This document shows positions 3,856 to 10,153 of a DNA stretch of 38,666 bases, one piece after another. The DNA lies in contig JAJXWJ010000029.1 in the NCBI GenBank assembly GCA_021781655.1, positions 1 to 38,666 on the forward strand, written 5' to 3'. Positions within the stretch are counted from its first letter, which is position 1. Each line of letters starts with the position of its first letter. Source of the DNA: Bacillota bacterium (GTDB lineage Bacteria > Bacillota > Clostridia > Clostridiales > Clostridiaceae). The notes below the pieces were generated by a model. The model saw only the letters and a program-made list of their open reading frames with translations. It made no database searches and was not told where the DNA came from. Position numbers and translations under genes: made by a program.

Positions 3856-4440
3856 ATGAAAATCGGTGTATTATCTCTTCAAGGTGGAGTGATTGAACAT
3901 TTGAACCACCTTGAAGCTATTGGACATGAGGCTGTAGAGATAAAAAAAGCTTCAGATTTAGTTAATATAGACGGGATTATAATTCCTGGAGGTGAAAGTA
4001 CTACTATTGGCAAGCTGCTTTTTGATACTGGGCTATTTAATCCTTTAAAGGAAAAAATACAAGAAGGAATGCCAGCTTGGGGTACTTGTGCAGGTATGAT
4101 TTTGCTTTCAAATAAAATTGAAGATTGCGATTATAATTATTTAGGATGTATAGATATTACTGTAAAAAGAAATGCTTATGGAAGGCAACTAGATAGTTTT
4201 GAAACAGAAGCGTCCATTCCAAAAGTATCAGATTGCAAAATACCTTTAGTATTTATTAGAGCTCCGTATATAACCGCTCTAGGTGAAGGTGTTGAAAATT
4301 TATGTGAAGTTGATGGAAAGATAGTTGCAGCAAAAAAAGATAATATACTCGTTACTGCTTTTCATCCAGAACTTACAAAAAATCTAGACTTCCACAAATA
4401 TTTTACCTCCTTAATTATAAAAAAAAATAAAATTAATTAA
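3856..4440 (+). CDS. pdxT: Pyridoxal 5'-phosphate synthase, glutaminase subunit
   Basis: A 194-residue class I glutamine amidotransferase that supplies ammonia to PdxS. The family signature [11 protein letters not shown] is at the N-terminus and PGGESTT (residues 44-50) follows. The triad is C78 (WGTCAGM), H170 and E172 (AFHPELTKN). The start lies one base behind the pdxS stop and its ribosome site (AGAGG) is inside pdxS, consistent with coupled translation. Confidence 0.97.
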
Positions 4441-4458
4441 AAAAAATCAAAAAAGGTA

Positions 4459-4487
4459 TTGCAATGTTAAAAATAATGTAATATAAT
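4459..4487 (+). promoter_or_regulatory. Predicted promoter of the ptsG leader
   Basis: TTGCAA (4459-4464), 17 bases, then TATAAT (4482-4487). Transcription would begin near 4494 and give a leader of about 285 bases, which holds the RAT site and a terminator. Confidence 0.65.
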
Positions 4488-4551
4488 GAAAACGTAATCA
4501 AGTGAGAGACATTAAATTAGGCAGTTCTCAGGAGGTTAAGTATTATATCTA

Positions 4552-4580
4552 GCGTGTTACTGATTAGATCAGGCATGAGC
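4552..4580 (+). promoter_or_regulatory. GlcT-type ribonucleic antiterminator (RAT) site
   Basis: The stretch GTGTTACTGATTAGATCAGG followed by CATGAG closely matches the GlcT-binding RAT of Bacillus ptsG leaders as I recall it (GTGTTACTGATT, one variable base, GATCAGGCATGAG). It folds with an upper stem CTGAT/ATCAG (4560-4564 with 4568-4572) and a lower stem CGTG/CATG (4553-4556 with 4574-4577). BglG-family antiterminators bind such a site when their sugar is present and block the overlapping terminator. No glcT gene is in the window, so the regulator must be encoded elsewhere. Confidence 0.82.
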
Positions 4581-4748
4581 ATAGGTAAATAAAATAATTT
4601 AATATTTGTTTTAGATTCAAGGTTTTGTGCAATATTTTGCTATTATAATTTTCGTTATGATATTTTTTGCCGCACGGATTCCGTGGATAACTTTAGACAA
4701 ATATTAGGTGCTTTTTATTTCCATATGTTCATGCCTTTTGTTGTTTTT
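4571..4748 (+). terminator. Long-looped terminator overlapping the RAT, upstream of ptsG
   Basis: Bases 4571-4583 (AGGCATGAGCATA, the 3' half of the RAT plus a few bases) pair with 4724-4736 (TATGTTCATGCCT) over 13 positions with a single G-U pair. The right arm runs straight into a T-rich tail (4736-4748). The antiterminator and terminator therefore share sequence, as in glcT/licT systems, but about 140 bases lie between the arms instead of the usual short loop. The inserted part has its own small hairpin CACGG/CCGTG near 4674-4685. Confidence 0.65.
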
Positions 4749-4779
4749 AATATGCTGAAGATCTAGGAGGATTATATTT

Positions 4780-6789
4780 ATGAAAAATGCCTTCGGTAAA
4801 GCACAGAAAATCGGTAGAGCATTAATGCTACCAGTTGCTATATTACCGGCCGCAGGTATATTGCTTGCTTTTGGAACAATGTTTCAAGAAGACAGTTTCC
4901 TAAAGTATGCACCAGCTTTTAAAGTTCATTGGTTTCAAACTATAGCTATGGTTATGAGCAATGCAGGTAATGCTGTATTTAATAACTTAGCAATCTTGTT
5001 TGCAATCGGTGTTGCAGTTGGGCTAGCAGAAGGTGAAGGGGTTGCAGGTCTTGCAGCATTGGTTGGTTTCTTAATAATGAATGAAACAGTAGGTACATTA
5101 TTAGGTATAACTAATGGCAATATAGATGGAAGTAAATATGTCCAGGTTCTAGGTATAAATACACTTCAAATGGGTGTTTTCGGCGGTATAGTAATGGGTG
5201 TAGTTGCAGCATTACTATATAATAAGTTTCATGCTATAGAACTTCCTTCGTATCTTGGTTTTTTTCAAGGAAAGAGATTTGTTCCTATTATAACAGCACT
5301 AACTTCAATATTAGTCGGAGCAGTAATGTGTGTGATTTGGCCGCCGCTTGGCAAGGCTATAAATTATTTTTCATTGCACATGGTTGATGCTGACCCAACA
5401 TTAGCAGCTTTTGTTTTCGGTGTTGTTGAAAGAGCTCTGGTTCCATTTGGATTACATCACATTTGGTACAACCCTTTCTGGTATATGTTCGGAAGTTATA
5501 CTACAAAAGCCGGGCAAGTTGTTCATGGTGATAACTTGATTTTCTTTGCTCAGATGAAAGACGGCGTTCCTTTTACAGCAGGAACCTTTATGACTGGAAA
5601 GTTTCCATTCATGATGTTTGGTCTTCCAGCAGCAGCACTTGCAATTTATCATGAAGCAAAACCAGAAAAAAAGCCAATTATAGCTGGCATTATGGCTTCA
5701 GCAGCATTAACATCTTTTTTAACAGGTATTACAGAACCAATTGAATTTTCATTTTTATTTGTTGCACCAGTATTGTATGGAATACATTGTATATTTGCAG
5801 GATTGTCTTTTGCAATAATGCAGTTGTTAAATGTAAAAATTGGTATGACATTTTCTGGTGGACTTATAGATTTTGTACTGTTTGGGGTTTTACAAAACAG
5901 AACAGCATGGTGGCTTGTAATCCCGGTTGGACTTTGTTTCTCTGCAATTTACTACTTTGGATTTAGGTTTGCAATAAGAACCTTTGACTTAAAGACACCA
6001 GGTAGAGAAGATGATGACTTAGAGTTTCAAAACTTTAAAGGTGCAGAACTGGCATATGGTGTTTTAAAGGCTTTAGGTGGAAATGAAAATATAACAGCTT
6101 TAGATGCTTGCATTACTCGCTTAAGAGTTTCTGTAAAAAATATAGGAAATATTGATGAACATAAGCTTAAGAGCTTAGGGGCATCAGGCGTTATGGTGAT
6201 TGGTAATAGTTTACAGGCTATTTTTGGACCAAAATCTGACAATTTGAAAACTCAGATGAGAGACATAATGGCTGGAAAAAAACCTACCATTATCAAATAT
6301 AAAGAAGATTCTTTGTCTTCTAATAAAGAAAGTGGTAACGCAGGTATTGTAGCACCAATGGATGGAAGATTAATTAGTATAACAGATGTTCCAGATATAG
6401 TTTTTTCTAAAAAATTAATGGGTGATGGTTTTGCAATAGAACCTCATAATGGTGAAATTGTTTCTCCTATTGATGGATTAGTTACAACGGTATTTCCTAC
6501 GAAGCATGCTGTTGCTATTACTGGAGACAATGGGCTTGAAGTATTGATTCATTTTGGAATCGATACGGTAAAGTTAAAAGGTGAGGGATTAACCGTTTTA
6601 GTTACTAAGGATTCAAAGGTTAAAAAAGGTCAGCCAATATTGAAAGCTGACATAGATGCAATAAAAGATAAAGTTCCTTCGTTGATTACTCCAATAATTT
6701 TCACAAATTTATCAGAAGGACGAAGTGTTTCCATTAAAGCAGGTAAAAAGATAAAACGAGGTCAAAAAAATATTATTGAAATAATATAA
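4780..6789 (+). CDS. ptsG: PTS glucose-family transporter, EIICBA
   Basis: A 669-residue membrane permease and phosphotransferase. Residues 1 to ~405 are the EIIC domain with many membrane segments (start [17 protein letters not shown]; substrate region [12 protein letters not shown]). EIIB follows with its phosphocysteine C444 ([13 protein letters not shown]). After a linker comes EIIA, with H576 (TKHAVAI) and phosphohistidine H591 ([10 protein letters not shown]). The domain order C-B-A matches ptsG/glcG-type glucose transporters; N-acetylglucosamine (NagE) is the main alternative. The RAT site of GlcT type upstream favours glucose. ATG 4780 follows AGGAGG closely. Confidence 0.92.
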
Positions 6790-6825
6790 CTTTAAATAAA
6801 TTGAATATTACAAATATTAATTTTG

Positions 6826-6869
6826 GTTACAGGTTTCTTTTAGAACTTATATATATATTTTTCTGTAAC
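6826..6869 (+). promoter_or_regulatory. Inverted repeat flanking a candidate -10 upstream of the mannose PTS operon
   Basis: GTTACAG (6826-6832) and CTGTAAC (6863-6869) are exact inverse copies 30 bases apart. A TATATA (6850-6855) that could serve as a -10 lies between them, while no good -35 is seen. This may be a split operator or a weak hairpin. There is no sigma-54 (-24/-12) promoter and no LevR/ManR gene here, unlike many mannose PTS operons. Confidence 0.3.
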
Positions 6870-6893
6870 AAATAAAAAATAGGAGGTATAAAA

Positions 6894-7859
6894 ATGGTAG
6901 GAATTATTCTTGCTAGTCACGGAGACTTTGCTAAAGGCATTTTGCAATCTGGTACTATGATTTTTGGAGAACAAGAAAACGTAAAAGCAGTTACGCTTAT
7001 GCCTAGTGAAGGACCTAATGATGTTAAAGCAAAAATGAAAGATGCAATCGCATCCTTTGACAATCAAGATGAGGTTTTAATCTTAGTAGATCTTTGGGGC
7101 GGTACACCATTCAATCAAGCAAACAGTCTATTTGAAGAACACAAAGATAAGTGGGCAATAGTAGCTGGGTTGAATTTACCAATGTTAATTGAAGCTTTTG
7201 GTTCTCGTCTTTCAATGGAATCAGCACAAGAGATTGCTGCTAGTATTTTAAATTCAGCTAAAGAAGGAGTTAAAGTTAGACCTGAGAAATTAGAACCAGT
7301 TGCTACAGCTGTAACAAATGGAGCTAATAATAGAAGTGCTGGTGCACCAGGATCCTTCGAATATGTTTTAGCTAGAATCGACTCTCGTTTACTTCATGGT
7401 CAAGTAGCAACTGCTTGGACAAAAGCTATGAATCCAACAAGGATTATTGTTGTTTCAGATGATGTTTCAAGAGATGAGCTTCGTAGAAATTTAATTACAC
7501 AGGCTGCACCTCCAGGAGTTAAAGCTCATGTTGTTCCAGTTGATCATATGATTAAATTGGCAAAAGATAAAGACCATTTTGGTGGACAACGTGCAATGCT
7601 TCTTTTTGAAAATCCACAAGATGTACTTAGAGCAGTAGAAGGTGGAATTCCACTTAAAACAGTAAATGTTGGTTCTATGGCACACTCTAAAGGTAAAGTA
7701 CAACCAAACAAAGTACTTGCTTTCGATCAAAATGATATTGATACTTTTAACAAACTTAAAAAAGCTGGACTTAATTTTGACGTTCGTAAAGTTCCAAATG
7801 ATTCAAAAGGAAATATGGATGAAATTTTAAAGAAAGCACAAGAAGAATTGAAGAAGTAA
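6894..7859 (+). CDS. manX: PTS mannose-family EIIAB (cytoplasmic)
   Basis: A 321-residue fused EIIA-EIIB protein. The EIIA domain (residues 1 to ~130) begins GIILASHGDFAKGI with phosphohistidine H9 and has DLWGGTPFNQA. A flexible linker rich in Ala/Asn/Gly (~135-155) leads to EIIB, with phosphohistidine H169 in RIDSRLLHGQVATAW. Phosphate passes from HPr to H9, then H169, then the incoming sugar held by EIIC/EIID. Strong AGGAGG upstream. The fused ManX/ManL architecture is typical of glucose/mannose permeases of this family; exact sugar not provable. First gene of the EIIAB-EIIC-EIID set. Confidence 0.95.
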   Translation: MVGIILASHGDFAKGILQSGTMIFGEQENVKAVTLMPSEGPNDVKAKMKDAIASFDNQDEVLILVDLWGGTPFNQANSLFEEHKDKWAIVAGLNLPMLIEAFGSRLSMESAQEIAASILNSAKEGVKVRPEKLEPVATAVTNGANNRSAGAPGSFEYVLARIDSRLLHGQVATAWTKAMNPTRIIVVSDDVSRDELRRNLITQAAPPGVKAHVVPVDHMIKLAKDKDHFGGQRAMLLFENPQDVLRAVEGGIPLKTVNVGSMAHSKGKVQPNKVLAFDQNDIDTFNKLKKAGLNFDVRKVPNDSKGNMDEILKKAQEELKK

Positions 7860-7918: not shown

Positions 7919-8725
7919 GTGACTCTTAATATAATTCAAATAATATTAGTAATTATTGTTGCGTTTTTAGCTGGTATGGAAGGTATACTAGATGAGTTTG
8001 AATTTCATCAACCAGTTGTTGCTTGTACATTAATAGGCTTGGTTACAGGTAATTTAGTACCTTGTCTAATTTTAGGTGGTACTCTTCAAATGATAGCCTT
8101 AGGTTGGGCAAATATCGGTGCTGCCGTAGCACCTGATGCAGCACTTGCATCTGTTGCATCTGCAATTATTTTAGTTCTTAGTGGACAGGGAAAAGCTGGA
8201 GTTGCTTCAGCTATGGCTATAGCTATTCCTCTAGCAGTTGCTGGTCTTTTATTAACAATTATTTGTCGTACTATAGCTACAGCATTCGTTCATTTCATGG
8301 ATGCAGCAGCAAAAGATGGAAATATAGGCTTAGTTGAATTTTGGCAAATTGCTGCAATTTGTTTACAAGGTATACGTATAGCAATTCCAGCTGCTATGAT
8401 TTTAGCAATCGGAGCTGGTCCAATCCATACACTTCTTAGCGAAATGCCTTCTTGGTTAACAGATGGACTTGCAATTGGTGGTGGAATGGTTGTTGCTGTT
8501 GGTTATGCAATGGTAATAAACATGATGGCTACAAGAGAAGTATGGCCATTCTTTGCAATAGGTTTTGTGTTAGCAACTGTTACACAAATTACTCTTATAG
8601 GTTTAGGTGCAATTGGAGTAGCTTTAGCTCTTCTTTACTTAGCACTTAGCAAACAAGGTGGCTCAGGTAATGGTGGAGGCACAAACACTGGTGATCCATT
8701 AGGCAACCTAATAGATAGTTACTAA
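7919..8725 (+). CDS. manY: PTS mannose-family EIIC (membrane)
   Basis: A 268-residue integral membrane protein starting at GTG 7919, with AAAGGAGGAG at 7901-7910. It has several hydrophobic helices and the EIIC signature region GTLQMIALGWANIGAAVAPD, close to the family's IG-rich permease motif. It forms the sugar channel together with EIID. The C-terminal tail is Gly/Asn-rich (GGSGNGGGTNTGD). The short repeats of ATAATCGAAA between the EIIAB stop and this gene (7860-7890) look like simple sequence. Codons such as CGT and GCT are more frequent than in neighbouring regions, as expected for a highly expressed operon. Confidence 0.94.
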   Translation: MTLNIIQIILVIIVAFLAGMEGILDEFEFHQPVVACTLIGLVTGNLVPCLILGGTLQMIALGWANIGAAVAPDAALASVASAIILVLSGQGKAGVASAMAIAIPLAVAGLLLTIICRTIATAFVHFMDAAAKDGNIGLVEFWQIAAICLQGIRIAIPAAMILAIGAGPIHTLLSEMPSWLTDGLAIGGGMVVAVGYAMVINMMATREVWPFFAIGFVLATVTQITLIGLGAIGVALALLYLALSKQGGSGNGGGTNTGDPLGNLIDSY

Positions 8726-8744: not shown

Positions 8745-9656
8745 ATGGCAAATGAAATAAAATTAACTAAAAAAGATCGTATGGCTGTATGGTTCCGTTC
8801 CTTTTATCTTCAAGGTTCTTGGAACTATGAAAGAATGCAAAATGGTGGTTGGGCTTTCGCAATGATTCCAGCAATCAAAAAATTATATAAAACTAAAGAA
8901 GAAAGAGTTGCTGCTTTAGAGCGTCACTTAGAATTCTTTAATACTCATCCATATGTAGCTTCACCAGTTGTAGGTGTTACTTTAGCTCTTGAAGAAGAAC
9001 GTGCAAATGGAGCACCAATCGACGATGTAACTATTCAAGGTGTTAAAATTGGTATGATGGGACCTTTAGCAGGTGTTGGTGACCCAGTTTTCTGGTTTAC
9101 TGTAAGACCGATTTTAGGAGCTTTAGCAGGTTCTATGGCAATGGCAGGAAACATTCTTGGACCAATAATATTCTTCTTTGCTTGGAATATTATTCGTATG
9201 AGTTTTATGTGGTATACACAAGAATTTGGATACAAAACAGGTTCTCGTATTTCTGAAGATTTAACTGGTGGCTTAATTCAAGACATCACAAAAGGAGCTT
9301 CTATACTTGGTATGTTCATCCTAGGAGCTTTAGTTAACAGATGGGTATCAGTTAAGTTTGCACCTACAGTATCATCAGTTAAGTTAAGCAATGGAGCTTT
9401 CATTGATTGGAGCAAGCTTCCTTCTGGAGCAGCTGGCATTCAACAAGCCCTATTACAACAAGCAGGTGGTTTGTCATTAACAGATCATAAGGTTACAACT
9501 CTTCAAAACAATTTGGATTCATTAATTCCTGGACTTTCTGGATTATTAATAACATTTATTTGTATGTGGTTGTTAAAAAAGAAAGTTTCACCAATTATAA
9601 TAATTCTTGGATTGTTCGCAGTTGGTATAGTTTTCCACTTGATCGGTTTAATGTAA
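8745..9656 (+). CDS. manZ: PTS mannose-family EIID (membrane)
   Basis: A 303-residue EIID protein. The N-terminal amphipathic part has FRSFYLQGSWNYERMQNGGW and HLEFFNTHPYVASPVVG. The conserved core GVKIGMMGPLAGVGDPVFW is the family signature. Two or three membrane helices are at the C-terminus (LSGLLITFICMWLL and IIIILGLFAVGIVFHLIGL). It completes the permease with EIIC. ATG 8745 follows AAAGGAGAG. A terminator follows the gene. Confidence 0.95.
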   Translation: MANEIKLTKKDRMAVWFRSFYLQGSWNYERMQNGGWAFAMIPAIKKLYKTKEERVAALERHLEFFNTHPYVASPVVGVTLALEEERANGAPIDDVTIQGVKIGMMGPLAGVGDPVFWFTVRPILGALAGSMAMAGNILGPIIFFFAWNIIRMSFMWYTQEFGYKTGSRISEDLTGGLIQDITKGASILGMFILGALVNRWVSVKFAPTVSSVKLSNGAFIDWSKLPSGAAGIQQALLQQAGGLSLTDHKVTTLQNNLDSLIPGLSGLLITFICMWLLKKKVSPIIIILGLFAVGIVFHLIGLM

Positions 9657-9778: not shown

Positions 9779-10153
9779 ATGGTTGAATCACTAAATACAA
9801 AGGTAGATCTAGCAATAGATGCTACAGCTTTTATGGGTTTGCCAGAATACGGTAAAGTTATGATTGGAGATAAAGGTTTTGAGTTTTATAATTCTCGTGA
9901 TACCCACAAATATATTCAAATACCATGGGAAGAAGTTGACTATGTAATTGCATCTATAATGTTTAAGGGAAAATTGATTCCAAGATATGCAATCAAAACG
10001 AAAAAAAATGGAACTTACACTTTTTCTTCAAAAGATCCTAAGAAAGTATTACGTGTCATTAGAGATTATGTTGATCCAGCTCGTATGGTTCAATCATTAA
10101 GTTTTTTTGATGTAATTAAACGTATATTTACATCTAGATTTAAAAAAAAGTAA
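9779..10153 (+). CDS. manO: DUF956 family protein, ManO
   Basis: A 124-residue protein found almost only next to mannose-family PTS operons and usually named ManO. Recognisable parts are NTKVDLAIDATAFMGLPEYG, the central KYIQIPWEEVDYVIASIMFKGK and the basic end FFDVIKRIFTSRFKKK. It is predicted to be PH-like and cytoplasmic; a role as modulator of the PTS operon is assumed in the literature but the mechanism is not settled. ATG 9779 follows AGAGGTGG. It has its own promoter and a long hairpin terminator. Confidence 0.88.
   Translation: MVESLNTKVDLAIDATAFMGLPEYGKVMIGDKGFEFYNSRDTHKYIQIPWEEVDYVIASIMFKGKLIPRYAIKTKKNGTYTFSSKDPKKVLRVIRDYVDPARMVQSLSFFDVIKRIFTSRFKKK

Follow-up and report, generated by a model that had tools for sequence, protein, structure and literature searches.

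A GlcT-type leader before ptsG

We analysed a 38,666-nucleotide stretch of DNA (the window: contig JAJXWJ010000029.1 of assembly GCA_021781655.1, positions 1 to 38,666) from a Clostridiaceae member of the Bacillota. Here ptsG, a glucose-type gene of the phosphotransferase system (PTS), and a mannose-type PTS (man) operon follow one another on the forward strand, which carries all window features described below. As an initial annotation of this DNA had indicated, the leader of ptsG contains a ribonucleic antiterminator (RAT) of GlcT type (4552-4580; GCGTGTTACTGATTAGATCAGGCATGAGC). It folds alone at -7.2 kcal/mol, and its 21-nt core (GTGTTACTGATTAGATCAGGC) matches our search pattern with 0 mismatches. 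With its 29-nt form GTTACTG..CAGGCATGAG it falls in the GlcT class under what we take to be the consensus. Two further RAT sites in the genome, at up to 2-3 mismatches, both lie on contig C147 and carry CAGGCGARACC as their tail, not CAGGCATGAG; apart from the window RAT, none with a GlcT-type tail was found in the genome. A looser RAT 20-mer (at most 3 mismatches) occurs once in the window, as an exact match, with 0.44 sites expected and at least one in 37 of 100 shuffles, so that this count is weak by itself and the weight rests on the exact match and its position. The gene that follows the RAT (ptsG, 4780-6789, 669 aa) encodes a glucose-type enzyme II (TIGR02002, 778 bits, cut-off 591.8) with a IIA domain (TIGR00830, 143 bits, cut-off 97.5), the kind of target that belongs to this class of attenuator.

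The 3' half of the RAT provides the first 10 bases of a terminator 5' arm (4571-4594), whose inverted-repeat partner is the 3' arm at 4713-4736; the 24-nt repeat is 88% complementary and ranked top in the repeat search. Direct reading bore out the 13 pairs proposed in the initial annotation (4571-4583 / 4724-4736), all standard with one G-U and 140 bases apart, together with the T tract behind the distal arm (4737-4748; TTTTGTTGTTTTT at 4736-4748), although two G interrupt it. The 140 bases had been taken for a structured insert in the terminator loop. In the minimum free energy (MFE) fold of 4500-4760, both arms continue inward nearly to the tip, and the interior (4595-4712) is a self-paired continuation of the terminator hairpin. 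This leader reaches -72 kcal/mol, against -50.5 +/- 4.1 in shuffles (z -5.22; 0 of 200 as good), and the segment between the 13-nt arms folds by itself at z -5.0 (100 shuffles). As predicted by these folds, the window terminator is not a stem with a 140-base loop: it is one imperfect, nearly end-to-end paired hairpin of about 166 nt (the rod). The RAT 3' half is part of the predicted terminator stem, which is followed by the interrupted U tract, the arrangement of a RAT attenuator.

Upstream of the RAT we identified a candidate sigma-A-type promoter, TTGCAA-17-TATAAT (4459-4487), with 10 of 12 consensus positions; promoter-like sites occur in the region at near chance number (4, against 3.1 in shuffles), and its location ahead of the leader therefore counts more than its score. 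A catabolite-responsive element (cre)-like site, TGAAAACGTAATCA (4487-4500), overlies the presumed transcription start and is, under the cre consensus that we assume, the sole site of the window with at most one mismatch, where 2.16 are expected by chance. A small hairpin at 4503-4530 (arms 4503-4508 / 4525-4530) appears in the MFE fold only.

Downstream of ptsG lie the man genes for EIIAB (6894-7859; IIA, TIGR00824, 107.6, cut-off 98.35; whole-IIAB model PRK15088 under cut-off, 310.6 vs 400), EIIC (7919-8725; NF011647, 374.3, cut-off 278) and EIID (8745-9656; TIGR00828, 338.9, cut-off 292.75). An open reading frame of 124 aa (9779-10153) after EIID is also present in 19 of 20 fetched man loci, at 71-81% identity; in the twentieth the stretch ends at a contig end shortly past EIID. 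The genome encodes three antiterminators with a CAT_RBD domain: LicT on C147 (342.5 bits, cut-off 300), GlcT on C97 (15641-16450; 330.6 bits, cut-off 320) and a GlcT-like protein on C158 that remains under the cut-off (273 bits).

Rods in related leaders

The RAT core (at most 2 mismatches) was found in 98 of 206 genomes of the family. With added loci, some from another family of the order, and with identical 120-nt stretches counted once, we obtained 157 distinct RAT sites: 29 before man EIIAB, 41 before ptsG (window included) and 87 before PRD antiterminators, EIIB-first PTS genes, crr-like IIA or unresolved genes. We measured hairpin span from the best pair of arms that had 5 or more T among the next 8 bases, and rod counts cover RAT-bearing loci. 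We kept in the tables the 6 of 157 sites for which the arm finder returned no arm, as well as three crrIIA leaders whose spans of 255-278 are probably wrong arm picks. All 29 RAT-bearing man leaders have the hairpin, including the distal arm, in keeping with the widely spaced arms of the initial annotation; their spans are 149-183 (median 169, standard deviation 5.9 nt). The other 40 ptsG leaders, all with an arm, span 33-184 nt (median 79), so that the idea of short loops in classic RAT terminators stands as a tendency but not as a rule, and the remaining RAT terminators have a median span of 57 (arm found in 81 of 87). The window span of 166 is ordinary among man leaders and high among ptsG leaders, where long spans elsewhere are 173 (L092), 175 (L012), 183 (L074) and 184 (L089). 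In four loci (L048, L053, L058, L069), an EIIB-first PTS gene is preceded by two RAT sites separated by about 200-320 bases, and the arm finder gave the gene-proximal site no terminator arm.

Outside the RAT and arms, the window rod resembles the 29 man rods at z 1.6-9.8 against shuffles, with 69-70% identity at the best matches; among ptsG rods, L092 (z 4.2) and L012 (z 3.5) come closest and six others with a span of at least 100 reach z 2.9 or less. The stretch from 75 to 5 bases upstream of the RAT core gives a median z of 3.9 against man leaders (range -0.1 to 6.6, 29 rows) and of -0.4 against ptsG leaders (best 4.3, 40 rows). Of the 29 man leaders, 16 have a cre-like site with at most one mismatch 58-81 bases upstream of the RAT (17 of 30 rows when the window is added), and a looser cre-like 15-mer (at most 3 mismatches) is found upstream in 8 of 9 ptsG leaders with a span of at least 100 (window counted) vs 1 of 32 shorter ones. 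By sequence, the window leader is closer to man-operon leaders than to ptsG leaders, yet it sits before ptsG. Structured interiors (z -2 or lower) are the norm in RAT terminators of both groups, occurring in 26 of 29 man leaders and in 38 of the 39 ptsG leaders long enough to test.

We aligned the window with 23 man leaders (alignment A1, MAFFT), keeping the divergent rows L063, L065 and L110. RNAalifold with default settings returned 37 pairs, 13 of them with two-sided changes. A 62-pair rod, which is the 67-pair lenient result minus five pairs at the outer end, is paired in 90.4% of cells, compared with 86.8 in shuffled and 36-53 in slid alignments. Two-sided changes affect 22 of 62 pairs (shuffles 12.0 +/- 2.2) and 62 cells (shuffles 22.4 +/- 4.4), and 0 of 500 shuffles were as high on any of five covariation measures. 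The terminator base is among the covarying positions, as columns 29/208 are A-U in 15 rows and G-C in 9, and so are the interior column pairs 73/175, 72/176 and 97/152. These compensatory patterns indicate that the rod structure is under selection. In the same alignment the RAT 5' strand of the man leaders, UGUUAC (columns 7-12), can pair with GUAACA (columns 228-233) just before the ribosome-binding site and past the U tract; 97.9% of cells pair with almost no variation, which makes this pairing uninformative. The UGUUAC strand is also part of a small element described below, and the window terminator is not followed by a GUAACA partner.

The initial annotation had further suggested a domesticated insertion, that is, a mobile palindromic element or other insertion that entered the loop of an ordinary short RAT terminator. 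The rod is a long, imperfect, A+T-rich inverted repeat, as such an element might be, and before ptsG most RAT terminators are shorter (33-100 nt). However, there is no second full-length copy in the organism's own genome, where the next matches cover fewer than 65 bases (E 0.008 or worse), and in man leaders from four genera the length is similar, the pairing conserved and the position also kept. An insertion is largely refuted by this conservation, and we regard it as extremely unlikely. A nucleotide search of plasmids gave no match.

Conservation of the whole rod could instead reflect a second signal (a ligand, a protein, a small RNA or RNase III processing), antitermination being one job among others. 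Pairing is conserved along the whole rod although a short stem would suffice for termination, and length is tightly kept in man leaders (the 5.9 nt given above). With some 60 pairs, the rod also has sufficient length for RNase III. On the other hand, no conserved unpaired motif is evident by eye inside the rod in A1, and none of 4227 Rfam models reached its gathering score in the window, the best match on 4380-4900 being at chance level (E 4.3). The interiors of the long ptsG rods are at most weakly similar to that of the window (the two at z 4.2 and 3.5, the six at 2.9 or less), which points to shape rather than a specific aptamer. Altogether, we consider a second signal improbable.

With a covariance model of the man-type leader (R1), six held-out leaders score 70.0-193.7 bits (sequence-only model, 67.2-148.3), and three leaders with a degenerate RAT score 80.1-109.8 bits (sequence-only, 87.5-95.7). 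The gain from structure is 40-45 bits for L199, L201 and L221, 19 for L149, 14 for L194 and 7 for L195.

Predicted exchange between the antiterminator and the rod

We computed MFE folds of growing transcripts in 8-base steps, ignoring the polymerase footprint. From 4578 to 4730, every step shows the RAT hairpin or a variant that retains its core, with the rod growing alongside; both coexist at 4730, and at 4738 the RAT core is lost and the rod base closed. When the RAT is forced in a constrained fold, 4578-4583 / 4724-4729 stay paired, and the RAT and terminator states differ by 7 base pairs (4571-4577 / 4730-4736) and 9.3 kcal/mol. Constrained and unconstrained folds thus make the RAT hairpin and the terminator base mutually exclusive, and the predicted exchange is local, since only these 7 base pairs are swapped while the rod pairs are kept. 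Relatives behave alike: with the RAT forced, 25 of 29 man and 40 of 41 ptsG leaders lose none of the rod pairs inside the arms (exceptions L205, L065, L193, L216 and L106), and the switching cost has a median of 10.1 kcal/mol (range 5.7-14.3) in the 29 man leaders and 9.4 kcal/mol (range 5.1-20.3) in the 41 ptsG leaders. The suggestion that the 140 bases may slow folding finds no support in these models, in which the rod forms with the RAT intact and leaves 7 base pairs to exchange, so that a long span need not slow folding. In them the rod itself bridges the span and brings the distal arm up to the RAT.

The following sequence of events can be envisaged. The RAT hairpin would be transcribed first, and the following bases would fold into a rod stacked beside the intact RAT, with 4578-4583 / 4724-4729 already closed. 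The emerging CATGCCT (4730-4736) would then adjoin the RAT 3' half and could displace the RAT, whereupon the rod base would close at the T tract and transcription would terminate before ptsG. When glucose is entering, dephosphorylated GlcT would clamp the RAT hairpin and block the exchange, allowing read-through into ptsG and probably the man genes. The length of the rod would mainly add time, about 150 transcribed bases in this model, between RAT synthesis and the decision; the extra time may favour GlcT.

We conclude that the window leader is likely a RAT attenuator of GlcT type whose terminator is unusually long and paired over almost its whole length. By descent it belongs with the leaders found before the man operon in related genera, but here it precedes ptsG. 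Sequence, homology, covariation and thermodynamic compatibility all bear this out; GlcT binding, termination, a glucose response and co-transcription with man would be expected to follow. Several results weigh against this conclusion. Two G interrupt the T tract, and no terminator was found in the region by a generic scan, an outcome to be expected because the scan's loop limit of 3-8 is unsuited to a long rod. Fold energies ignore kinetics, relatedness inflates the shuffle test, and the tested structure was derived from the same sequences; in 3 of 29 man rods the interior has a z above -2. Divergent held-out leaders gain little from structure in R1 (L148, 70.0 vs 67.2 bits; L153, 71.4 vs 67.9), and L227 scores worse than with the sequence-only model (80.1 vs 87.5). 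R1 is also not specific to the long rod, as L082 with a span of 92 (85.4 bits) outscores L012 with a span of 175 (61.9), and it scores opposite strands of the symmetric hairpin at up to 49.7 bits. Finally, a match to the GlcT model at E 1e-60 or better is present in 29 of 29 genomes with a RAT-bearing man leader and in 151 of 204 overall, a weak co-occurrence because LicT also reaches E 1e-60.

Alternatively, GlcT might have no part in control, and the RAT would be a relic beside an ordinary strong hairpin. Three man leaders (L194, L195, L227) keep the rod with a degenerate RAT, so that antitermination may be lost while the rod persists. Yet all 24 rows of A1 agree in RAT columns 7-17, an invariance due in part to selection of rows by RAT match (at most 2 mismatches), and a GlcT gene is present in the genome. 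We therefore hold a relic RAT in the window to be very unlikely.

History of the locus

Between ptsG and EIIAB the window carries a small conserved 5' element of the man operon (6821-6886), with a GGTTACAG..CTGTAAC stem, an A-rich tail and a ribosome-binding site. The stem, GUUACAG/CUGUAAC, encloses a 4-bp hairpin (UA/UG/CG variation at one pair) and an A+U-rich strand; the tail and the ribosome-binding site at its end are strongly conserved. In an alignment of 19 small elements (A2), from which L226 and L227 were left out for a duplicated tail (CTGCAACAAATAAAAAACTGTAACAAATAAAAAATAGGAGG) and a RAT, respectively, covariation is modest, with 14 to 116 of 500 shuffles as high on five measures. 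The corresponding model (R2) gives the window element, itself a row of the training alignment, 86.2 bits as the single match of its genome at E 0.01, and, of 58 genomes searched under strict filters, finds a single match apiece in 5, the organism's own among them. The small element has no Rfam match above chance.

Man EIIAB was detected in 70 of 204 genomes (E 1e-60), and we read the upstream regions of 50 matches, namely the 30 best and 20 without a RAT-search match nearby. Among the 30 best, 25 have a RAT (at most 5 mismatches) upstream and 5 have none, including the window's own EIIAB; one of the 20 further matches has a degenerate RAT. The small element, as TTTTGGTTACAGGTT..AAACTT..CTGTAACAAATAAAAAATAGGAGG or a close form, is found in 20 of the 24 regions without a RAT, and no clear one is seen upstream in L225, L229, L230 and L236. 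RAT-bearing man leaders retain only the 3' half of the small element; in the window the element that precedes EIIAB is complete, and the RAT rod stands ahead of ptsG. Clostridial mannose-type PTS operons are usually expected to be under LevR/sigma-54 control. In two RAT-less man operons (L210, L215), TTGGCAC-N5-TTGCT, which resembles a sigma-54 promoter as we assume the motif to be, lies roughly 150 bases before EIIAB; together with the RAT elsewhere, this may represent two rival control systems for one operon.

The gene order is pdxS-pdxT-RAT-ptsG-man-(124 aa)-parE in the window and pdxS-pdxT-RAT-ptsG-(123 aa)-parE, without man genes, in genome G030. None of pdxS, pdxT, ptsG and parE has a match within 7-10 kb in the 20 fetched man loci (tblastn, E 1e-8), and on this ground we rejected a man operon that carried pdxST/parE along. 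In a midpoint-rooted tree of EIIAB+C+D (21 rows), the window groups with 12 RAT-man rows and one RAT-less row (97/97), with internal order unresolved. One RAT-man operon (L254, genome G198) falls among non-RAT rows (100/99 with L264), a possible transfer or independent gain.

The scenario that seems most economical to us is that a ptsG-type leader with RAT and rod gained control of man through loss of an intervening ptsG, with the unfused order preserved in the window. Alternatively, ptsG may have been inserted into a man leader, a scenario that must also explain the complete small element; for this element, and for the RAT-ptsG without man in G030, we set it aside as the sole scenario.

We tentatively suggest, as a possibility that we consider rather unlikely as a whole, a distinct class of RAT attenuators. 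Its rod of near-constant length would be both scaffold and timer, giving GlcT about 150 bases to decide and then bringing the displacing strand up against the base of the RAT, at a cost near 10 kcal/mol whatever the span. A leader of this class would first have served ptsG and later the mannose PTS: loss of ptsG in relatives would have joined the rod to the 3' half of the small element, giving their man leaders, and the window would still show the unfused order of leader, ptsG, small element and man. Among RAT terminators the span ranges over more than a factor of five (33-184 nt), while the median of the computed switching cost lies near 10 kcal/mol (range 5.1-20.3); this steadiness follows from the 'loop' being itself a stem. 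The leaders thus offer a natural series of hairpin lengths for studying the effect of decision time on antitermination, and predict that in many clostridia mannose-type PTS operons are under control of GlcT type.

Comparison with known systems

The man operon of C. beijerinckii (Cbei_0711-0713) is up 11.6-31.6-fold after the onset of solventogenesis, and antitermination is not mentioned in the available text of that study (PMC3395874). Mannose is likewise not mentioned in the available main text of two transcript-mapping studies (PMC3271303, PMC9045289), nor PTS in that of a premature-terminator survey (PMC2965389), and according to the available part of a review of sugar uptake in solventogenic clostridia, what RATs do in the sucrose operon and upstream of glcG had not been verified (PMC4706839). 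We found neither a RAT before a clostridial man operon nor the long rod in our searches of the open-licence PMC literature, and Rfam gave no match to the rod. Within Rfam and these searches, we found no precedent for a long rod kept among relatives and tied to the mannose PTS; the mechanism is known in kind, and length is a trait of the homologous leader group, leaving the idea of an insert unsupported.

Among the closest known systems is the GlcT/RAT attenuator of Bacillus ptsG. It has in common with the window the RAT sequence, the PTS target gene, the sharing of the RAT 3' half with the terminator and a GlcT homologue, and it differs in that the window terminator spans about 166 nt as one rod. 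The solved chain 3rio, named 'PtsGHI operon antiterminator', matches L243 and L244. Work on the NagY-nagE leader of Enterococcaceae reported RAT terminators that vary in length and show compensatory changes, together with a covariance model, as in the window group but for another gene and antiterminator; the available text describes no long rod of near-constant length (PMC9981650). In the bglG/bglT leaders of Clostridium acetobutylicum, the available text describes read-through reporters and RAT 3' ends that form large stem-loops, like that of the window, split in two sub-stems; the RAT tail is CAGGCGAGACC vs CAGGCATGAG in the window, and the target is a beta-glucoside PTS (PMC12628678). The man-operon leaders of related Clostridiaceae share with the window a homologous RAT, rod and rod length and, in part, a cre-like start; they run directly into EIIAB via a tail like TGTAACAAATAAAAAATAGGAGG, whereas the window has ptsG between.
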